Source: Jatrophihabitans sp. (GTDB taxonomy: Bacteria > Actinomycetota > Actinomycetes > Mycobacteriales > Jatrophihabitantaceae). From it: a DNA stretch of 64,000 bases. This document shows, in pieces, positions 13,866 to 31,956 of this stretch (position 1 is the stretch's first letter; each line of letters starts with the position of its first letter). The DNA lies in NCBI GenBank assembly GCA_025927835.1, contig JAICKR010000002.1, positions 1-64,000 on the forward strand, in the 5' to 3' direction. Under the pieces are notes generated by a model, which ran no database searches, was not told the origin of the DNA, and was given only the letters and a program-made list of their open reading frames with translations. A program made the position numbers and the translations under genes.

Positions 13866-15476
13866 TTGGCGCACGACCACCACGACCATCATCATCATCA
13901 CCACGATGACGACGATGACGACTTCGTGTACATCACCGACGACGGTGTCGAGGAAACCTTCGAGCCCGACCCCGACGAGCCACCGGTCGACCAGGTTCGG
14001 CTGACCACGGTCGGCATCGATATCGGCTCGGCCACCGCGCATTTCCTGCTGTCCCGCATCACGCTGCGCCGGCTCGGCCAGGCGATGATGAGCCGGTTCG
14101 AGGTCGTGAAGAAGGAAGAGCTCTACCGGTCGGGCATCGCGTTCACGCCCTACCGTTCGGCGACCGAGATCGACGCCGACGCCCTCTCCGCATTCTTCGA
14201 CGACCACTTCGCCAAATCCGGCGTGACCCACGAAGAGCTGGACACCGGCATCGTCATGCTCACCGGCGAGGCCGCGCGCAAGACGAATGCCCGGTCGATC
14301 GCCGCGTTGTTCGCCGGCTCGATGGGCAAGTTCGTCTGCACCTCGGCCGGGCACCTGCTCGAAGCGCGCATGGCGGCCAACGGCTCCGGCGCCGTTGCGC
14401 AGTCGCGCGAGCAGGGCAGCACCATCGTCAACGTCGACATGGGCGGCGGCACCACCAAGTTCACGCTGATCCGCGACGGCGAGCTCGTGGCATCGGCCGC
14501 GCTGAACGTTGGCGGCCGGCTCGTCGCGATCGAGGACGGTGTCGTCGCGCGGATCGACGACGCGGCCCGGCTCGCCGCCGCCCATGTCGGCATCGCCCTC
14601 ACGCTCGGCGAACCGCTCGCCGACGCGGACCGGCGCCTGCTGTGCGCCACGCTGGCCGACAGCGTCGTCGAGTACCTGACGAAGTCGGCCGCCGACTTCT
14701 CCGAGTTGACCAACCGGCTGCTGCTCACCGAGCCGATCGACGGGCTCATCGACGTCGCCGACGTCATCATGTCCGGTGGCGTCGCCGAGTACCTGGACAA
14801 TCCGGGGGAGGACGCGGCCGATCTCGGCCCGACGCTGGCCCAGGAGCTGTCCAGCCGGCTCGCGCACGCCGGTCGCCAGCTACAGGCTGCGTCCGAGCGC
14901 ATGCGGGCCACGGTCGTCGGGCTCTCGCAGTTCACCACGCAGCTGTCGGGGGACACCGTCTACATCTCCTCCGCACAGGCCACCCCGCAACGCAACCTGC
15001 CCGTCGTCCCGGTCAGTCTCAGCCATCTCGGCGAGGACCCGACGCCCGAACGGGTCACCGACGCGGTCCGCGACGGACTAGCCGCGTCCGGGCGCGAGGA
15101 CCTGCTCGACCCGGTTGCCGTGTCACTGGAGTGGGATGGGCGGCCCTACTACCGCACCTTGGTCGCGATTGCGCAGGGGATCGTGACCGCGGCGAAGACG
15201 GTGCTACCCGAGGGCCCGATCGTCGTCACCCTGACCCAGGACTGCGCACGGTCACTCGGCACCGCGCTGGCCGAGGTGGTCGGCGGCGAACGCGAGGTCG
15301 TCTGCGTGGACGGCCTGCACCTGTCGGAGAACGACTTCATCGACGTCGGCGACGCGATCCAGAACGGCCGCGTGGTGCCGGTGGTGGTCAAGACCCTGGT
15401 CTTCCCCGAGACGAGGGCGGAAACGGTGGCCGGGCAGACCGGCCGGTTCGTCGAAGTAGGCGGCCAGTTGCTGTGA
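13866..15476 (+). CDS. EutA-family protein (ethanolamine ammonia-lyase reactivating factor-like, actin-like ATPase fold)
   Basis: VGIDIGSATAHFLLSRITLRRL...GIAFTPY; VDMGGGTTKFTLI; natural His/Asp-rich N terminus HDHHDHHHHHHDDDDDD. Confidence 0.82.
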   Translation: MAHDHHDHHHHHHDDDDDDFVYITDDGVEETFEPDPDEPPVDQVRLTTVGIDIGSATAHFLLSRITLRRLGQAMMSRFEVVKKEELYRSGIAFTPYRSATEIDADALSAFFDDHFAKSGVTHEELDTGIVMLTGEAARKTNARSIAALFAGSMGKFVCTSAGHLLEARMAANGSGAVAQSREQGSTIVNVDMGGGTTKFTLIRDGELVASAALNVGGRLVAIEDGVVARIDDAARLAAAHVGIALTLGEPLADADRRLLCATLADSVVEYLTKSAADFSELTNRLLLTEPIDGLIDVADVIMSGGVAEYLDNPGEDAADLGPTLAQELSSRLAHAGRQLQAASERMRATVVGLSQFTTQLSGDTVYISSAQATPQRNLPVVPVSLSHLGEDPTPERVTDAVRDGLAASGREDLLDPVAVSLEWDGRPYYRTLVAIAQGIVTAAKTVLPEGPIVVTLTQDCARSLGTALAEVVGGEREVVCVDGLHLSENDFIDVGDAIQNGRVVPVVVKTLVFPETRAETVAGQTGRFVEVGGQLL

Positions 15477-15504: not shown

Positions 15505-16611
15505 ATGACCCAACCGGAACGCAAGACCGAGATCGAGTTCAAGACGCACTCGTACGTGCTCTACATGCAGGACAAGTACGACGCGTACCGCAAGTGGCTC
15601 GAGCAGGAAAACCTGCCGGCCTACGACGGGAAGTTCATCCCGAACGTCCGCACGCTCGAACTGGGCGATTGGCCGCGCCGCAAGGCCCGTGGTGCGTTCC
15701 TCGAGTTCCGCGACCAGAACGTGTCCGAGTGCTATGTCACCGAGATCGCGGCAGGCGAGAGCCTTCCCCCGCAGCGGCAGATGTACGAGGAGATCGTCGT
15801 CGTCGCCGACGGCCAGGGCGCGACCACGCTCTGGTGGGACGAGAACAGCCCGCGGCACACCATCGAATGGCATCGCGGCAGCCTGTTCGCGATCCCGCTC
15901 AACTGCAACTACGAGCACATCAACACGAGCGGAAGCCAGCCGGCCCGGCTGCTGTCGCTCACCGACGCGCCGGTCACCTGGGACCTGTACCGCGACCCGG
16001 GATTCATCTTCAACAGCAACTACCAGTTCCGGGACCGCTTCGACCCGGACATCTCCGACTTCTACAAGCGGCCCGGTAAGTACCTCACCGAGTACTACGG
16101 CGGCATCCTCGACACCGCGTTCGTGTCCGACCTGCGCGAGGTGAAGCTCGTGCCGCGGTCCAAGCGCGGGGCCGGCACGATGAACATGTACATCCACCTC
16201 GCGGGCAGCACGATGTTCGCGCACATCTCCGAGTTCCCGGTCGGCACGTACAAGAAGGCGCACCGGCACGGTGTCGGCGCACATGTCTACACGCTCGACT
16301 CGACCGGCTACACGATGATGTGGAAGGACGGCGAGGAGCCGCAGCGCTACGACTGGCAGGAAGGCACCGTCGTCTCGCCGCCGGCCGGCTACTGGCACCA
16401 GCACTACAACACCGGCCCGATCCCGGCCAAGTTCGTCGCGCTGCACGCTTCGGTCGCGCTCGGCGGCGACGCGGCCAAGGACGGCAAGGGTCTCGAGCAG
16501 ATCGACTACGCCTACGAGGACTCGGCGATGCGCGAGATGTACATCGAGGAGTGCCGCAAGAACGGCGTCGAGGTGCGGATGAAGGAAGTCAGCAGCACCG
16601 ATCACTCGTAG
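15505..16611 (+). CDS. two-domain cupin protein
   Basis: Two cupin-like halves; second contains HRHGVGAHVYTLDSTG and PAGYWHQHYNTG metal-site candidates. Confidence 0.75.
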   Translation: MTQPERKTEIEFKTHSYVLYMQDKYDAYRKWLEQENLPAYDGKFIPNVRTLELGDWPRRKARGAFLEFRDQNVSECYVTEIAAGESLPPQRQMYEEIVVVADGQGATTLWWDENSPRHTIEWHRGSLFAIPLNCNYEHINTSGSQPARLLSLTDAPVTWDLYRDPGFIFNSNYQFRDRFDPDISDFYKRPGKYLTEYYGGILDTAFVSDLREVKLVPRSKRGAGTMNMYIHLAGSTMFAHISEFPVGTYKKAHRHGVGAHVYTLDSTGYTMMWKDGEEPQRYDWQEGTVVSPPAGYWHQHYNTGPIPAKFVALHASVALGGDAAKDGKGLEQIDYAYEDSAMREMYIEECRKNGVEVRMKEVSSTDHS

Positions 16612-17322: not shown

Positions 17323-18515
17323 CGCAGTCCGACCTGGTCCGCGAGGCCATCAGCGGCACCCGGCCCGGCTTCGACAGCCGGCAGCACCTCGCCAACGCCC
17401 GCAAGCAGGCGGTCGAGCGCAACTACGCCGACATCCTCATCGTCGACGCCGACGCGCACCACTACGAGAACGACTCGCTCGGCGAGATCGCGAAGTACAT
17501 CGAGGATCCGGTCATCCGGCACCGCGCACAGGGCACCGACAAGTACGGCAAGGCGCAGTCGCTGTCGATGGAGTACAACCAGAACCAGTCGGTGGCCGGC
17601 CGGATCGTGCGCTACCCGAAGCGCCGCCAGGAGGTCGGTGACCCCGGCGTACCGCGGGACGTCTCGATCGTGCGTCGCCAGATGGAGAGCATCGGGATCG
17701 ACTACCAGGTGCAGTTCCCGACACCGATGCTGCATCTCGGGATGCACCCCGACCCGCAGATCGAGACGGCGCTGAGCTGGGCGTACACCCGGTGGCTCAC
17801 CGAGGAGATCCTGCCGCACGACGACCGCATCATGACGCTGGTCTACCTGCCGTTCACCGACCCGGACGCCAGCCTGCGGGCGGTCGAGACGTTCGGGTCA
17901 CGGCCCGGCGTCGTCGGCTTCATGGTGACCGGCGCGCGTTACAAGGCCGTGCACGACAACGCCTACATGAAGGTCTACCGCGCCATCGAGGAGCGCGACC
18001 TGCCGATCGCGTTCCACGCGAGTTCCTACCCGCACGAGCGGATGTTCGAGGGGATGAACAAGTTCCTCTCGGCGCACGCACTCGGCTTCACGTTCTACAA
18101 CATGGTGCATCTGACGAACTGCGTGATCAACGGCCTGCCGGAGCGCTTCCCCAGCCTGAAGTGGATCTGGATGGAGAGCGGGCTCGCCTGGATCCCGTTC
18201 ATGATGCAGCGGCTCGACAACGAGTACTCGATGCGCACGTCCGAGGCGCCGCTGCTGAAGATGAAGCCGAGCGAGTACATGCGCCGCAACTTCTACTACA
18301 CGACGCAGCCCATCGAGGACGGCAACCTCGAGGCGCTCGAGCTGACGATGCGGATGGTCAACGCCGAGTCGCAGCTGCTGTTCGCGTCCGACTATCCGCA
18401 CTGGGACTTCAACCTGCCGAGCACGATCTACGACCTGCCGTTCCTGTCGATGGACGCGAAGCGCAATATCCTCGGTGAGAACGCACGCCGGATCTTCCAT
18501 CTGGAGACCACGTGA
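17319..18515 (+). CDS. amidohydrolase family protein (amidohydrolase_2)
   Basis: IVDADAHHYEND...; AFHASSY; LFASDYPHWDF; GTGA overlap with upstream ORF. Confidence 0.87.
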   Translation: MTQSDLVREAISGTRPGFDSRQHLANARKQAVERNYADILIVDADAHHYENDSLGEIAKYIEDPVIRHRAQGTDKYGKAQSLSMEYNQNQSVAGRIVRYPKRRQEVGDPGVPRDVSIVRRQMESIGIDYQVQFPTPMLHLGMHPDPQIETALSWAYTRWLTEEILPHDDRIMTLVYLPFTDPDASLRAVETFGSRPGVVGFMVTGARYKAVHDNAYMKVYRAIEERDLPIAFHASSYPHERMFEGMNKFLSAHALGFTFYNMVHLTNCVINGLPERFPSLKWIWMESGLAWIPFMMQRLDNEYSMRTSEAPLLKMKPSEYMRRNFYYTTQPIEDGNLEALELTMRMVNAESQLLFASDYPHWDFNLPSTIYDLPFLSMDAKRNILGENARRIFHLETT

Positions 18516-20257
18516 CGGTGGAACGGCCGCAGGGACTCACGGGCGCAGCCGGTGCACCCGAGTACGGGTCGGACGTCGTCGTCGAGACCCTGCGCGAGCT
18601 CGGCTACCGCTACCTCCCGCTCAACCCTGGCTCGAGCTTCCGCGGGCTGCACGACTCGGTCGTCAACTTCGGCGGCAACGAGCAGCCGCAGCTGCTGCTC
18701 TGCCTGCACGAGGAGATCGCCGTCTCGATGGCGCACGCCTACGCGAAGGCAAGCAGGCGCCCGGCGGCTGCCGCCGTGCACGACCTCGTCGGGCTGATGC
18801 ACGCCTCGATGGCCGTCTACAACGCGGCGTGCGACCAGGTGCCGCTGCTACTGCTCGGCGGCAGCGGACCGGCCGACCCGCGGAAACGGCGCTCGATCGA
18901 CTGGATCCACACCGCGAGCACGCAGGCCGAACTCGTCCGCGACTACGTGAAGTGGGACGCCGAAGCCCTCGTCCCCGAGGACTTCCGCGCGGCCGTCGCC
19001 CGCGCGCACGCGCTCGCGCACACCGGGCCGCCCGGGCCGGCCTACGTCTCACTGGACGCGGACGCGCAGGAGCAGCGTCTCGCCGCTGCGGTCCCGCCCC
19101 TCGCCACCGCCGCGACCACGGTGCCGGCGCTGGCACCCGACCCGGTCGCGCTCGCGGCCGCGGTCGACGCGCTGCTCAACGCCGACCGGGTCACCGTCGT
19201 TGCCGGGCGGCTCGCCCGCGACCCGCGCGTCACCCAACCGCTCGTCGAACTCGTCGAACTGCTCGGTGCCGCGTACGTCGACGAGCGCAACGCGGTGTGC
19301 TTCCCCACCGCACATCCGCAGAACCTGAACGGCGCGCGGACGGCGCTCGCCGACGCGGACGCCGTCCTCGCGATCGGCGTAGGTGACCTGCCCGGCACCC
19401 TGCCGCCGATCGCGGTCGGGGGAACCCGCACGGTGATCGAGATGTCCTACGGCGATCTGGGACTGCGGTCGTGGTCGCAGGAACGCGGTCACCAACTCGT
19501 CTCGGACGTGCTGCTCGTCGCCGATCCGCTGCCGGGGCTGCTCGCGCTGCTCGACGCGCTGCGGGCCAAGGGCGCGGCACCGGGTGCGTTCGCCGAGCGC
19601 CGCGCCGGCGTCGCGCAGCGCTGCGCGGACCGGCGCACGAAGCTGGCCGCCGCGCGCGCCGCCGAGGCGGACGCCATGCCCATCGCCCCCTCGCGCATGG
19701 TGACCGAGCTGTGGCAGACCGTGCGCGAGACGGACTGGATGCTGCTGCTGCGCAACACCCGCAGCTGGCCGGAGAACGTGTGGCAGTTCAACGGTGCCGG
19801 CGACTTCCTCGGGCACTCGGTCGGCGCCGGCGTCGGCTACGGGCCCGGCGCACTCGTCGGTGGCGCACTCGCCGCGCGCGACATGGGCCGGCTAGGCGTC
19901 GGCATCATCGGCGACGGTGATTTCCTGATGGCCGCCGGCGCACTGTGGACCGCGGTGCACTACAAGATCCCGATGCTCGTCGTCATCAACGACAACTCGT
20001 CCTTCTACAACGACGAGGAGCACCAGGCCGAGGTCGCGCGGCACCGCGGCCGGCCGGTCGAGAACTCGTGGATCGGGATGCGGATGGCTGACCCGAACGT
20101 CGACCTCGCCTTGCTGGCGCGCTCCTACGGCTGCTGGGCCACCGGCCCGATCGCCGACCCGAACGTGCTCGGCGGCGTGCTCGGCGTCGCCCGCGACCGC
20201 GCATTGGCCGGCGAGGTCGCCGTGGTCCAGGTACGCACCGACCCGACCCGCAAGTAG
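18512..20257 (+). CDS. thiamine pyrophosphate-dependent enzyme (acetolactate synthase/benzoylformate decarboxylase-like)
   Basis: LNPGSSFRGLHDS, CLHEEIAVSMAHAYAKAS; C-terminal TPP motif GDGDFLMAAGALWTAVHYKIPMLVVINDN. Confidence 0.88.
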   Translation: MTVERPQGLTGAAGAPEYGSDVVVETLRELGYRYLPLNPGSSFRGLHDSVVNFGGNEQPQLLLCLHEEIAVSMAHAYAKASRRPAAAAVHDLVGLMHASMAVYNAACDQVPLLLLGGSGPADPRKRRSIDWIHTASTQAELVRDYVKWDAEALVPEDFRAAVARAHALAHTGPPGPAYVSLDADAQEQRLAAAVPPLATAATTVPALAPDPVALAAAVDALLNADRVTVVAGRLARDPRVTQPLVELVELLGAAYVDERNAVCFPTAHPQNLNGARTALADADAVLAIGVGDLPGTLPPIAVGGTRTVIEMSYGDLGLRSWSQERGHQLVSDVLLVADPLPGLLALLDALRAKGAAPGAFAERRAGVAQRCADRRTKLAAARAAEADAMPIAPSRMVTELWQTVRETDWMLLLRNTRSWPENVWQFNGAGDFLGHSVGAGVGYGPGALVGGALAARDMGRLGVGIIGDGDFLMAAGALWTAVHYKIPMLVVINDNSSFYNDEEHQAEVARHRGRPVENSWIGMRMADPNVDLALLARSYGCWATGPIADPNVLGGVLGVARDRALAGEVAVVQVRTDPTRK

Positions 20258-20271
20258 CGAAGGAGATCGCC

Positions 20272-21729
20272 GTGACCGCGTCCTCCGAGGCGCTGCGGAC
20301 GCGTCCACTCTTCATCGGCGGCCAGTTCCGGCCCAGCACCGGCGAGCGCAGCTACGACACGCTCGACCCGACGACCGAGGACGTGCTGGCGACGCTGCCG
20401 GAGGCGAGCGCGGACGACCTGGCGGCCGCGGTCGAGGCCGGCCGCGCGGCCCAACCGGCGTGGGCCGGTGCGCCGTGGCAGCAGCGCGCGAAGGCACTGC
20501 GCCGCTTCGCCGACGCGCTGGCCGAGCGCAGCGACGAGTTCGCTGCCCTCGACGTCGCCGACTCGGGCAACCCGATCGGCGCCATGCGCGACGACGCGGC
20601 CGGCGGTATCCAGGAACTGCGCTTCTACACCGGGCTCGCGTCCGAGGTGAAGGGACACACGCAGCCCGCCGTCGAGAGCGCGCTGTCGTTCACCGAGCGC
20701 GCCGCGTACGGGGTCGTGGGCCGGCTGATCCCGTACAACCATCCGTTCAAGGCGGCGGTCGGCAAGATCGCGGCGCCGCTCGTCGCCGGGAACGCGGTCA
20801 TCCTGAAACCGTCCGAGCACTGCTCGCTGTCCGCGCTCGAGATGGCGGCGGTGGCCGCCGAGACGCTGCCCGCGGGCGTGCTCTCGGTGCTCACCGGCAG
20901 CGGCGCGGACATCGGGGCGGCGCTCGTCGGGCACCCGGACGTCCCGCGCATCGCGTTCACCGGCTCGGTGCCGACCGGGCGCGCGGTGCTGCGCGGTGCG
21001 GCCGAGCACATCAAGCACGTCACCGTCGAGTTGGGCGGCAAGAACCCGTTCCTCGTCTTCCCCGACGTCGACGTCGCGAAGGCCGCGCGCGCCGCGGTCC
21101 GCGGCATGAACCTCGCGCGCTCCAGCGGGCAGTCGTGCCAGTCGACCTCGCGGATCTTCGTGCACCGTGACGTGCACGACGCGTTCGTCGACGAACTGCT
21201 CGCCGTCGTCGCGGCGCTGCGCGTCGGTGATCCGCGCGACGAGTCCGTCGACCTCGGCCCGATGTCGTTCCGCGCGCACTACGACCGGGTGCTCGCAGCC
21301 ATCGAGGCCGGCCGGCGCGACGGGGCGAGGCTGTTGTGCGGCGGCGGCCGGCCGGACACGCTCGAGCGGGGCTTCTTCGTCGCGCCCACCGTGTTCGACG
21401 ACGTGCAGGACGAGATGACGATCGCGACCGACGAGATCTCCGGGCCGGTCATGTCGATCCTGACCTGGGACGACCCGGACGACCTGTTCCGCCGGGTGAA
21501 CAACACGCAGTACGGGTTGACGGCCAACGTGTGGGCCAACGACATTTCGCAGGCGCTGCGGGCCGCGCGGCGGGTCGAGGCCGGCTACGTGTTCGTGAAC
21601 AGCCAGGGCAAGCGGCCCCTCGGTGCGCCGTTCGGCGGCTGGAAGGCCAGCGGGCTCGGCAAGGGTTCCTCGTACGAGGAGCTGCTGTCCTACACGCGCG
21701 AGAAGGCCGTCACCGTCGAACTCGGTTGA
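20272..21729 (+). CDS. aldehyde dehydrogenase family protein
   Basis: VTVELGGKNPFLVFPD, SGQSCQSTSRIFVH, NDISQALRAARRVEAGYVFVN. Confidence 0.93.
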   Translation: MTASSEALRTRPLFIGGQFRPSTGERSYDTLDPTTEDVLATLPEASADDLAAAVEAGRAAQPAWAGAPWQQRAKALRRFADALAERSDEFAALDVADSGNPIGAMRDDAAGGIQELRFYTGLASEVKGHTQPAVESALSFTERAAYGVVGRLIPYNHPFKAAVGKIAAPLVAGNAVILKPSEHCSLSALEMAAVAAETLPAGVLSVLTGSGADIGAALVGHPDVPRIAFTGSVPTGRAVLRGAAEHIKHVTVELGGKNPFLVFPDVDVAKAARAAVRGMNLARSSGQSCQSTSRIFVHRDVHDAFVDELLAVVAALRVGDPRDESVDLGPMSFRAHYDRVLAAIEAGRRDGARLLCGGGRPDTLERGFFVAPTVFDDVQDEMTIATDEISGPVMSILTWDDPDDLFRRVNNTQYGLTANVWANDISQALRAARRVEAGYVFVNSQGKRPLGAPFGGWKASGLGKGSSYEELLSYTREKAVTVELG

Positions 21730-23131
21730 GCGGGCCCAGGCTGAGCCGGCCGAGCAGGCTGCGCGACGGCCGGGTGGCCATCACCTCGGTGATGTCCGCT
21801 GCCGTGACGGTCACGGAGGTGCCCTCGGCGCCACGGTAGCGGGCGTGCGCGCAGGCGTCGTCGAGCAGGTCGAGCGCGGTGTCGGGCAGCTGGCCGGGCG
21901 TCCGCCGGCCCTGCGCCACCGCGGCCTGCAACGCCGCGTCGTCGATCGTCACGTCGTGGAACTCGCCGTAGTGCTCGCGCACCCCGCGCAGGATGGCCAG
22001 CGTCTCGGCAGGCGTCGGCTCGCCCACCTCGATGACCTGCACCCGGCGGGTGAGCGGGCCGGCGTAGCGCAGGTGCCGGCGGTAGTCGGCCGGAGTGGTC
22101 GCACCGATCACCGCGATGTGCCCACGCGCCATCGGCGCGAGCAGGATCGAGCCGATGTCGAGCCCGCCCTCGGCGGCGCCGGTGCGCACCACGAGGTGGA
22201 ACTCGTCGATGAACAGCACGGTGGGGCTGGCCGAGTGCACGGCCTCGTCGAGCAGCTCCTGCACCCGCTCCTCGAACTCGCCGCGATAGCGGGTGCCGGC
22301 CAGCATGCCACCGAGGTCGACCGAGATCAGCCGGGCCGCGCCGAGCGCGCCGTCGGCCATCCGGGCGGCGACGCCCTCGACGATGGCGGTCTTGCCGACC
22401 CCTGGCTCGCCGACGAGCAGCGGGTTGCGCTTGGCCCTGCGCCGCAGCACCCGAAGCACGGCGTCGACCTCTGCGGTACGCCCGATCAGCGGGTCGAGCC
22501 GCCCCAGCGCGGCGAGCTGGGTGAGGTCGCGGCCGAAGCGCGCGAGCGCGACCTCGTCGCCGATTTCGAGCGGCGGCGGCGCGTTCACCACCGGCAGCGA
22601 CGTCGCCGCGGCGGCGGCCGCCTGTGCGGTCAGGTCATCCTCGTCGGGCACCGGCACCGGCGCCGCGAGGTGCGGCCGCTGACGCTGGGCGTTCTGGAGC
22701 AGCGGCGATCCCGGCAGCGGCCGGTCGAGCCGGGTCAGGATCGCGTTCGCCAGCTCGGGCCCGCTCGCCCGCCCGTCCGCGGTGTCGGACAGCGCGGCGC
22801 ACTCGCGGAAGAAGTCGGCCACCTCGCGGGTGACCACGACCTCGCGCGGCGTGTCGGTGTGGAACTGGAACGACCTGCCGTAGCGGCTGGACTCGGGCAG
22901 CCCGGGCGGGGCGAGCTCACGCCGCACCTTCTCCAGGTCGATGCCGAGCGAACGCCAGTTGCGCACGATCGAGTCGTCGGCGTCGAGCAACACCAGGGCG
23001 ACGTGTTCCATCGTGATCTGCACGTGGTTGCGCCGGCGCGCCAGCTTCTGTGCCTGGTGCAGCACGTCGCGCTGCCATACCGAACCGGTGTCCGGGTCCG
23101 GCAGCGGCTCCGGGGACGCGGGCAGCGTCAT
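21710..23131 (-). CDS. single-ring (D1-only) Clp-type AAA+ ATPase
   Basis: ClpN-like start; Walker A GEPGVGKTAIVEGVA, Walker B VLFIDEFH, sensor-1 IGATTPADYRRH, PLTRRVQVIEV; ends at the D1-D2 linker. ATGA overlap with upstream gene. Confidence 0.83.
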   Translation of the reverse strand: MTLPASPEPLPDPDTGSVWQRDVLHQAQKLARRRNHVQITMEHVALVLLDADDSIVRNWRSLGIDLEKVRRELAPPGLPESSRYGRSFQFHTDTPREVVVTREVADFFRECAALSDTADGRASGPELANAILTRLDRPLPGSPLLQNAQRQRPHLAAPVPVPDEDDLTAQAAAAAATSLPVVNAPPPLEIGDEVALARFGRDLTQLAALGRLDPLIGRTAEVDAVLRVLRRRAKRNPLLVGEPGVGKTAIVEGVAARMADGALGAARLISVDLGGMLAGTRYRGEFEERVQELLDEAVHSASPTVLFIDEFHLVVRTGAAEGGLDIGSILLAPMARGHIAVIGATTPADYRRHLRYAGPLTRRVQVIEVGEPTPAETLAILRGVREHYGEFHDVTIDDAALQAAVAQGRRTPGQLPDTALDLLDDACAHARYRGAEGTSVTVTAADITEVMATRPSRSLLGRLSLGPLNRVRR

Positions 23132-24525
23132 TCCCACGCGCGCGCGTCGGCGGGGTGTTTGTCGAGCCAGCTCGCCGGGTCCTGCGCGTAGTCGGCTTCG
23201 TAGTCACCGGGCACGGTCGCGCCGGGCACCGGCGGGATCCACGCCTTGCGCAGCAGCTCGTCGGGGTCACCCAGCTGTTCGGCGAGATCGCGCACTGCCT
23301 GGTCCTCGAGTGCCTTGAGGTTGCCGTTCTCGACGACGGTGATCTCCTCACCCTCGGTCGTGGTGAGCACATAGGTGGGCAGCTGCAAGTGTATGTGCAG
23401 GTGGCCCCACGGCAGGCCCTGCTCCTCGGCCCAGTGCTCGGACGGGTTGCCGTTCGCGGTGCCGAAGCCCATGTGGATGTAGCCGGAGCTGAGCCGCTCG
23501 AACATGGCCGCGTGCCCGGCGAGGGAGAACGCGTACGGCGGCCGGACCATCTTCGGGTGGGTGCCGATGGCGACCTCCCACAGCCAGAACAGGCCGGGCC
23601 CGGGGTTCTCCGGGTACTGGATGTCCTTGGTGAGCTCGATGCACTCGGCCCACTTCGCGCCGTACTCGCCGCCGCCCTCGACCCGGGTGATGCGGCCGTC
23701 CTCGACGTGCAGCCTGCAGTGCGGGAAGGGCTTGCCGTAGTGGTTGAGCGTGCCGGCGACGACACCGTTGACTGTCGGCATCGGGTCGTACGGGGGAGTG
23801 GGATAGCCGTACAGGTGACCCAGGTAGTACTTCTCCTGGAAGCGCCAGCGCGAGTTCGTCCGCGCGTAGTGCTCGCCCTCCCAGTGCTCCGGCCGCAGCG
23901 TGAACGTCAGGTCGGTGCCCTCCGGGTCGGTGAGGTGCACCGTGGCGTTCTTGCCCTTCGTCCAGATGGGCTTCCAGGCGGTCGCGTTGATCAGGTCCCA
24001 GAGCGGCCACGGGAAGCCGGCGGCCGGGAACGTCGCGCGGTGGTACCACGGGATGCCCTCGTAACGTGGCCCGTCGAGCACCGGCAGCGGGCCGCCCTCG
24101 CCCTGCAGCAGCAGCGAGTAGCCCTGCTTGACGGCGACGTCCTCGAGCCAGCGCAGCCGGCCCTGCCAGGCGTCGAACGCGACGTCACGTTCGACGCCGA
24201 CGTTGTGCATCAGGCCACGGAACTCGTCCAAGGGCTCGAGCGGCCGGTCGGGGACGTCGACATGGAAGACGTCGACCAGTGCGCCGATCTCGTTCATGGC
24301 CTGCACCAGCGCAGCGGTCACCGCCGGGTCGTCGGTCGCCTTCTCGACGAGCAGGATGCGCTCGCCGGACTTCACGTCGTAGCCGGCGGTCTTGGTGCGG
24401 TTCAGCGACGGCCCGCGGACGATCGTGCGCGCAGCGTCCAGCAGGGTCGGCGCCACGACGAGCTGGTCGGTGCGGACGTCGGTGCCGACCGTCTCGGCGG
24501 CCGGTTGCTTTGCTGCCTCGCTCAC
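23128..24525 (-). CDS. aminopeptidase M29 / NicX (2,5-dihydroxypyridine 5,6-dioxygenase)-like metalloprotein
   Basis: GERILLVEKATDDPAVTAALVQAMNEIGALVDVF; VHLTDPEGTDLTFTL; IHMGFGTANGNPSEHWAEEQGLPWGHLHIHL; GTG start inferred. Confidence 0.6.
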   Translation of the reverse strand: MSEAAKQPAAETVGTDVRTDQLVVAPTLLDAARTIVRGPSLNRTKTAGYDVKSGERILLVEKATDDPAVTAALVQAMNEIGALVDVFHVDVPDRPLEPLDEFRGLMHNVGVERDVAFDAWQGRLRWLEDVAVKQGYSLLLQGEGGPLPVLDGPRYEGIPWYHRATFPAAGFPWPLWDLINATAWKPIWTKGKNATVHLTDPEGTDLTFTLRPEHWEGEHYARTNSRWRFQEKYYLGHLYGYPTPPYDPMPTVNGVVAGTLNHYGKPFPHCRLHVEDGRITRVEGGGEYGAKWAECIELTKDIQYPENPGPGLFWLWEVAIGTHPKMVRPPYAFSLAGHAAMFERLSSGYIHMGFGTANGNPSEHWAEEQGLPWGHLHIHLQLPTYVLTTTEGEEITVVENGNLKALEDQAVRDLAEQLGDPDELLRKAWIPPVPGATVPGDYEADYAQDPASWLDKHPADARAWE

Positions 24526-30216: not shown

Positions 30217-31956
30217 ATGCATGCCGAACGCAAGCCTGCCTACGGGTCGGACCTGATGGCGGATGCGATCGCCGAGCTCGGTGTCGAGTACATCAGCCTG
30301 AACCCGGGCGCCACCTTCCGCGGCCTGCACGACTCGCTGGTCAACTATCTCGACCAGGGCGTCCAGCTCATCGAGTGCCCGCACGAGAAGATCGCGGTAG
30401 GCCTCGCGCACGGTTACGCGAAGGCCAGCGGCAAGCCGATGGCGGTGCTGCTGCACGACCTCGTCGGGCTGCTGCACGGCGCGATGGGCGTCTACTACGC
30501 GTTCTCCGACCGGGCGCCGGTGTTCGTCTTCGGCGGCTCGGGACCGGCCGCGCACGAGCGGCGCCGCGCGTACATCGACTGGGTGCACTCGGCCAACACG
30601 CAAGGCGGTGCAGTGCGCGGGTACACGAAGTGGGACTACGAGCCCACCTCGCTGGCCTCCGTACCCGGCGTGATCGCCCGCGCCGCGCGCATCGCGCTCA
30701 CCGAACCGCAGGGTCCGGTCTACGTCGCGCTGGATGCGGCGCTGCAAGAGGACCCGGTGCCCGACGCGTCCCTGCGGCCGGTCCCGCACCAGCTGCCGAC
30801 ACGCATCGCACCCGACCCGGCGGCGCTGGCCGATGCCGCCGACCGGCTCGTCGCAGCGCAGCGCCCGATGATCGTCGTCGGGTTCGCCGGCCGCGACCCG
30901 GCCGCGTTCGGCCAGCTCACCGAACTCGCCGAACTGCTCGGTGCGGGCGTGGTGGACACCTTCGCCCGGCTCAACTTCCCCTCCGCGCACCCGCTCGCCG
31001 CGCACGGCACCGACTGCCTCGACGAGGCCGACTGCGTCCTGCTCGTCGACCTGAAGGACTCCGAGAAGGCGCTGAGCACGGTCGAACCCACCACCCGGGA
31101 GACCCGCTCCCGGCTGGCCGGCGACTGCACGGTCATCGACCTGGGCTTCGGCGACCTCGAGATCTCCGCGTGGAGCGACGACCGCGGCGCGCCGCGCCAG
31201 GCCGACGTGCTGCTCACCGCGGACACGGTGCTGGCGCTGCCGCAACTCGTCGCGGCCTGTCGCCGCCGGCTCGGTGAATCGGGCCCCGACGCGCACAACG
31301 CCGCCTGGCGCGAGCAGGTGAGCACCGCGCGTGCGGCGGTGCGGCGTCGCTGGGCGGCCAAGGCGGACGAGCTGCGCGACGCCGTGCCGATCTCGCCGGC
31401 GCGGCTGGCCGCCGACGTGTGGTCGGTGATCCGCGAACACGATTGGGTGCTGACGGCCAACACCGCCGAGGAGTGGGCGCTGCGGCTCTGGGACTTCGAC
31501 CGGCCCTACTGCTACCCCGGGCGCCAGCTCGGCACCGCTACCCAGATCGGCATGTCGCTCGGCGTCGCGCTCGCGCACAAGGGGACCGGGCGGCTCGTCG
31601 TCGACCTGCAACCGGACGGCGACCTGATGTTCGACGCCGGCGCGCTGTGGGTGGCGTCCTACTACGAACTGCCGCTGCTGGTCGTGATGGTGAACAACCG
31701 CGCGTACTACAACGACTGGCACCACCAGGAGCTGATTGCGCGGGACCGCGGCACCGATGTCGAGAAGGCCTACCTCGGCATGGAGATCGACAATCCGGCC
31801 CCCGACTTCGCCGCCCTCGCGGCTTCCTTCTCGTGGTACGCGGAGGGACCGATCATCGATCCCGACGCAATCGAACCTGCCGTGCGCCGCGCGGCTCAGC
31901 ACGTTCTGTCCACCGGTGGTCCGGCGCTCGTCGATGTCGTGACGGCACGCCGGTGA
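30217..31956 (+). CDS. thiamine pyrophosphate-dependent enzyme, paralogue of the gene at 18512
   Basis: YGSDLMADAIAELGVEYISLNPGATFRGLHDS; PHEKIAVGLAHGYAKAS; QPDGDLMFDAGALWVASYYELPLLVVMVNN. Confidence 0.88.
   Translation: MHAERKPAYGSDLMADAIAELGVEYISLNPGATFRGLHDSLVNYLDQGVQLIECPHEKIAVGLAHGYAKASGKPMAVLLHDLVGLLHGAMGVYYAFSDRAPVFVFGGSGPAAHERRRAYIDWVHSANTQGGAVRGYTKWDYEPTSLASVPGVIARAARIALTEPQGPVYVALDAALQEDPVPDASLRPVPHQLPTRIAPDPAALADAADRLVAAQRPMIVVGFAGRDPAAFGQLTELAELLGAGVVDTFARLNFPSAHPLAAHGTDCLDEADCVLLVDLKDSEKALSTVEPTTRETRSRLAGDCTVIDLGFGDLEISAWSDDRGAPRQADVLLTADTVLALPQLVAACRRRLGESGPDAHNAAWREQVSTARAAVRRRWAAKADELRDAVPISPARLAADVWSVIREHDWVLTANTAEEWALRLWDFDRPYCYPGRQLGTATQIGMSLGVALAHKGTGRLVVDLQPDGDLMFDAGALWVASYYELPLLVVMVNNRAYYNDWHHQELIARDRGTDVEKAYLGMEIDNPAPDFAALAASFSWYAEGPIIDPDAIEPAVRRAAQHVLSTGGPALVDVVTARR

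Follow-up and report, generated by a model that had tools for sequence, protein, structure and literature searches.

A EutA-family ATPase gene paired with a gentisate-dioxygenase-like bicupin gene in bacterial catabolic clusters

Canonical EutA removes the damaged cofactor from its enzyme in a process that requires ATP (PMC5821096). The window analysed here, a stretch of 64,000 nucleotides from a contig of Jatrophihabitans sp., carries a gene of this family amid genes of aerobic catabolism, which raises the question of what such a protein would act on in this setting. An initial sequence-only reading of the locus had proposed that the protein is a EutA without EutB/EutC that may have been repurposed for a different enzyme.

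The EutA-like protein and its family

The gene is an open frame for 536 aa with a TTG start and the sequence GAAGGA upstream. Its features are as follows.

13866-15476, plus strand: EutA-like ATPase of the ASKHA fold, 536 aa, belonging to the cupin-linked clade (assigned from the Pfam match, the tree and the AlphaFold model).
13866-14006, plus strand: His/Asp-rich N-terminal extension of 47 aa with 9 His, AHDHHDHHHHHHDDDDDD, predicted to be disordered (pLDDT below 50 for residues 1-34).
14010-14036, plus strand: phosphate-1 region, V49-T57, with the clade-specific Ser55.
14436-14459, plus strand: phosphate-2 loop, D191-x-GGGT-T-K198, with the clade-specific Lys198.
14772-14789, plus strand: SGGVAE adenosine-binding motif, with G304 and G305 invariant in the alignment.

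The match to the Pfam EutA profile PF06277 spans positions 3-474 of its 475 and scores 365 bits (E 8e-109; gathering score, 27 bits), so that the protein is a full-length, intact member of the family to which it had been assigned from the sequence. The four NCBIfam equivalog models for EutA give 312, 211, 206, and 158 bits, each below its cut-off (598, 769, 952, and 799 bits, respectively). No other true PF06277 match is present in the genome; the weak matches of about 20-39 bits found in this genome and in the surveys are short fragments of the phosphate-2 region, probably from ASKHA proteins of the MreB/PilM type, and were left out of the counts.

The AlphaFold model (pLDDT 83) is confident except for the tails, and has the ASKHA fold: the nearest Foldseek neighbors are PPX/GppA, component A of 2-hydroxyglutaryl-CoA dehydratase, and PilM, with actin and EutJ also found. 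The alignments used for folding exclude the sequences from plasmid records. A PDB sequence search with this protein alone returned mostly tag and low-complexity noise, and a search for related loci with it as the single query recovered one locus only. DdrA and GdrA, the reactivases of diol and glycerol dehydratase, are two-subunit ASKHA proteins that act on damaged B12-dependent clients; they are absent from the best 50 fold matches of the model. Component A and the other activators of 2-hydroxyacyl-CoA dehydratases, like the ATPase subunits of benzoyl-CoA reductase, share the ASKHA fold and the ATP-driven activation of a partner enzyme. Activators of the component A type use a [4Fe-4S] cluster, whereas the best conserved cysteine column of the EutA-like clade reaches only 17/31, and a reductive activator of this kind was ruled out.

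The nucleotide motifs are intact, with their glycines and aspartates invariant; D191 and G193-195 are found in all 41 EutA proteins compared (31 cupin-linked and 10 canonical). With full-length PF06277 matches, intact ASKHA motifs, and 29-35% identity to the EutA of ethanolamine ammonia-lyase, the protein likely shares its mode of work. What sets the clade apart are two residues by the phosphate loops that divide the groups completely (position 55, Ser in 31/31 cupin-linked versus Thr in 10/10 canonical proteins; position 198, Lys in 31/31 versus Asn in 10/10), the His-rich tail, a bicupin neighbor instead of EutBC, and a genome that usually has no EutB. In the tree, a branch supported at 100/100 separates the 31 cupin-linked from the 10 eutBC-linked proteins; the tree is unrooted, and either side could be ancestral. 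The placement of the protein outside the EutA of eut operons is thereby fully supported.

The N-terminal extension is a candidate metal-binding tail. An extension with at least three His is present in 23/31 cupin-linked proteins versus 0/10 canonical ones, and is weak or absent in the other eight. One subclade (L024, L025, L119, L120, and L123b) has EutA-like proteins that lack it; here six cupins (those of L024, L025, L120, L123b, and L126, and the related L127) carry an N-terminal segment with the motif HWHEP, while the corresponding segment of the remaining cupins has at most one His. This apparent shift of the His segment to the cupin would amount to one or two evolutionary events and is suggestive only. 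In the gene pairs found in G418 and G376, neither partner has the tail.

It is very unlikely that the protein is an ordinary EutA serving ethanolamine ammonia-lyase or another B12-dependent enzyme encoded elsewhere. The absence claimed by the sequence-only reading extends from the window to the available genome, where no match to eutB (PF06751) or to the large subunit of diol dehydratase (PF02286) was found; because this assembly is 76% complete, eutBC could be missing from it, and the result is in itself suggestive only. Among genomes with EutA-like genes, eutB is absent from 16 of the 18 tested, many with a completeness of 90% or more, and present elsewhere in the genome in two; PF02286 is absent from 19/22 and found only in G018, G020, and G222. 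Conversely, the five genomes of the phylum sample with canonical EutA all have eutB, and none has the cupin. Together with the separate clade and a partner that is a cupin rather than eutB, these results led to the rejection of an ordinary eut-operon EutA; a diol dehydratase client was likewise ruled out from the distribution of PF02286. The proposal of a repurposed EutA thus survives both the eutBC search and the tree, but it had overlooked the probable partner, which is the product of the next gene.

Conserved pairing with a bicupin

The gene lies in the surroundings first described for it, between a gene for an LLM oxidoreductase and, 28 bp downstream, the start of a bicupin gene, in a co-directional run that also encodes molybdenum hydroxylase subunits, a Rieske ferredoxin, an amidohydrolase, a TPP-dependent enzyme, and an ALDH. 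The features of the bicupin are as follows.

15505-16611, plus strand: gentisate-dioxygenase-like bicupin (Cupin_2), 368 aa, proposed client, adjacent to the EutA-like gene in 31 intact loci.
16261-16284, plus strand: motif 1 of the C-terminal cupin, H253-R-H255-GVGA-H260 (H253 and H255 in 34/34; His at position 260 in 25/34).
16396-16404, plus strand: motif 2 of the C-terminal cupin, H298-Q-H300 (both His in 34/34).

The bicupin is probably an oxygenase with a mononuclear metal, of the same type as gentisate dioxygenase. It shares the bicupin architecture and HxH...HxH motifs of gentisate and 5-aminosalicylate 1,2-dioxygenases, and its best profile match in the PDB is the gentisate 1,2-dioxygenase 3bu7 (E 3e-8). 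It differs from them in that the His site is retained only in the C-terminal cupin domain, the N-terminal domain having lost it, and in that the NCBIfam model for 5-aminosalicylate dioxygenase gives 32 bits where its cut-off demands 650, with the gentisate model unmatched. The structural neighbors of its AlphaFold model, which is confident (pLDDT 86), are other bicupins, the best of which are oxalate decarboxylases and vicilins.

The EutA-like and bicupin genes form a conserved cassette, defined by adjacency and by near-exclusive co-occurrence. Loci were drawn from relatives of the window, from rhizobial plasmids, and from three genome samples, taken from the order of the window, from its phylum, and from one order of Alphaproteobacteria. 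The EutA-like gene directly adjoins a bicupin homolog in 31 intact loci, with the cupin first in 22, EutA first in 6, and the two divergent in 3. In the 30 tabulated pairs (21 cupin-first, 6 EutA-first, and 3 divergent), the gaps range from -4 to 279 bp, five pairs overlapping by 4 bp; the 31st is a further Sinorhizobium copy, cupin-first. In locus L092, both genes have decayed together. Genomes with EutA-like genes and genomes with the cupin coincide 12/12 among 250 genomes of the order, 6/6 among 297 of the phylum, and 5/5 among 199 of the alphaproteobacterial order, with Fisher p-values of 1e-19, 1e-12, and 4e-10, which overstate independence given that the samples share ancestry and those of order and phylum overlap in part. 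The order sample contains one further cupin, in G021, where the contig breaks off within the same operon and cuts the gene. Of 72,556 plasmids, only the 4 that encode EutA-like proteins have the cupin; the 21 with canonical EutA all lack it.

The two proteins are also co-inherited. The cupin tree has the same subclades as that of the EutA-like proteins, and the patristic distances of 29 pairs correlate with r = 0.79, whereas none of 5000 permutations exceeds 0.43. Within genomes that hold two or three cassettes (G044, G319, G706, and G717), each EutA-like protein and its neighboring cupin fall into corresponding subclades of the two trees, and species history alone is insufficient to explain this. 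Likewise, in a Devosia MAG (G534) the two kinds of gene lie on different contigs, yet there are three of each, in matching subfamilies, one of the EutA-like genes being truncated by the end of its contig.

An incidental linkage, in which both genes merely travel on mobile catabolic islands, would agree with the patchy distribution in catabolic clusters and with the plasmid copies, yet it has very little probability, given that the flanking genes vary between loci while the pair persists in only distantly related bacteria, with three gene arrangements, and even unlinked. Gene linkage alone also fits two steps of one pathway or a two-subunit enzyme. In the latter, which is unlikely on the whole, an ASKHA subunit would activate the substrate in the manner of hydantoinase or acetone carboxylase and the cupin would complete the reaction; the near-perfect 1:1 genome counts, the overlapping genes, and the co-inheritance are all compatible with it, and hydantoinase-type ASKHA enzymes are present in such clusters (L013 1069-3270). 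Nonetheless, the genes are unlinked in G534, the sole known role of the family is reactivation, and two genomes have one EutA-like gene for two cupins, an arrangement that suits a service factor.

Several genes recur around the cassettes. The window encodes two paralogous TPP-dependent enzymes (18512-20257 and 30217-31956), and relatives of one or both lie near other cassettes (L015, L022, L117, L122, and L143). A LigXa-like Rieske oxygenase, a ketopantoate-hydroxymethyltransferase-like protein, an alpha/beta hydrolase, and tripartite tricarboxylate transporters are further repeated neighbors (L025 3752-5038, L048 4656-5477, and relatives).

Related cupins and other ATPases

Genomes G019 and G009 share much of the catabolic island, at about 50-87% identity and mostly above 65%, and in them a Cdc48-like AAA+ ATPase takes the place beside the cupin, here a mono-cupin akin to the bicupin's C-terminal half. 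A second type of bicupin is paired with the same kind of ATPase in L015, L050, L142, and L143, and in L015, L050, and G222 the EutA-like and AAA+ cassettes lie near each other. A Cdc48-like ATPase with a single AAA+ domain is the immediate neighbor of a cupin, bi- or mono-, at the following six loci.

L015 4474-6424
L050 6695-8593
L142 5039-7017
L143 6022-8028
L135 2991-4417
L140 5751-7234

For the mono-cupins of G182 and G043, no AAA+ gene lies alongside in the stretches read. The presence of a dedicated ATPase of either fold beside gentisate-dioxygenase-like cupins favors a role in remodelling or reactivation over one in substrate chemistry, which would be unexpected of an AAA+ protein and counts further against the two-subunit enzyme. 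The second bicupin type also has, as neighbors, small proteins made of one cupin with an N-terminus very rich in His (HGHSHG... and HAHGHGHGHG; L135 18578-19255 and L139 3631-4260).

The window was further said to hold two ATP-dependent remodelers and no known client. The second of these is indeed there, as a ClpA/ClpB-D1-like AAA+ protein with Clp_N and one AAA domain (21710-23131, minus strand), but a candidate client for the EutA-like protein lies in the very next gene. The AAA+ gene overlaps by 4 bp the gene at 23128-24525 (minus strand), which encodes a protein of 465 aa with no Pfam or NCBIfam match; its conserved His, Glu, and Asp residues would fit a metal enzyme of the M29/NicX type. 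G018 and G020 each retain homologs of the two genes together; in G021 these lie on separate contigs. In L137 (G043:C98, 4834-9153), a homolog of the 465-aa protein (32%) directly precedes a CbbQ-type MoxR AAA+ gene and a gene for a VWA-domain protein with an internal His-rich stretch; the same presumed client thus has a different ATPase beside it.

Proposed role of the pair

The bicupin is the most likely client of the EutA-like protein, and the reading preferred here, to which we give a probability of about 0.6, is that the latter is a dedicated ATP-dependent factor for reactivation or metal-site maintenance of the cupin. The ASKHA ATPase would bind the cupin in a nucleotide-dependent manner, as EutA does with ethanolamine ammonia-lyase, and an ATP-driven conformational change would open it; a dead active site, with its metal oxidised or lost or with an inhibitor bound, could then be released, and the His/Asp-rich tail, which is on the ATPase in most loci and on the cupin in one subclade, may hold or hand over the replacement metal. 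The physical interaction, the ATP hydrolysis, the metal, the reactivation, and the cupin reaction are what we infer from the pairing and the sequences. Against this reading count the other explanations that gene linkage would fit, the pairs with a weak or missing tail, the low dioxygenase scores and the structural neighbors of the cupin, and the mono-cupins of G182 and G043.

Reactivation could also consist solely of removing a tight-binding inhibitor or a misfolded state, in the style of Rubisco activase, with a His tail unrelated to metal delivery. The lack of a universal tail would be in line with this, as would the remodeler families to which the AAA+ partners of related cupins belong and the CbbQ and VWA pair beside a P0002 homolog. 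Nonetheless, most pairs have a His-rich segment, and in the one subclade whose ATPase is without it the cupin carries one, which makes this version improbable, more so than the two-subunit enzyme. CbbQ/CbbO and NorQ/NorD are ATPases dedicated to a client that re-open or load a metalloenzyme, as proposed here for the EutA-like protein (PMC8718961, PMC9976466), NorQ/NorD being described as an AAA+/VWA pair essential for the insertion of non-haem iron (PMC9976466). They differ in that these MoxR AAA+ proteins, acting with a VWA protein, have a fold unrelated to ASKHA, and other clients.

That this EutA has been repurposed is well supported; an ASKHA reactivase is of a kind already known, and the cupin would be a new partner for it. 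In the open-access literature searched, no report of a EutA/cupin pairing was found, and nothing relevant was returned for EutA with cupin or for reactivase with dioxygenase and cupin; where two papers on osmolytes speak of EutA, the name probably denotes something else. More broadly, the odds are about even that an O2-dependent mononuclear-metal cupin is served by a lineage of reactivases that either descends from those of B12 enzymes or is their sister, and that the gentisate-dioxygenase-like cupins of aerobic catabolic clusters each have a dedicated ATPase that restores the metal center, its fold being either of two unrelated ones (EutA-type ASKHA or Cdc48-type AAA+).

At least one member of the clade, in a Phyllobacterium plasmid record, is labelled 'ethanolamine ammonia-lyase reactivating factor EutA' and the adjacent cupin 'hypothetical protein'; such an annotation implies a pathway that most hosts probably lack. 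Cupin oxygenases probably become inactive in the course of turnover as their metal is oxidised or lost. If the proposed role is true, the ATP-driven repair of B12 enzymes and of Rubisco would have a counterpart in cupin oxygenases, and the cassette would be a system ready for tests and perhaps a practical route to stabilise these enzymes.
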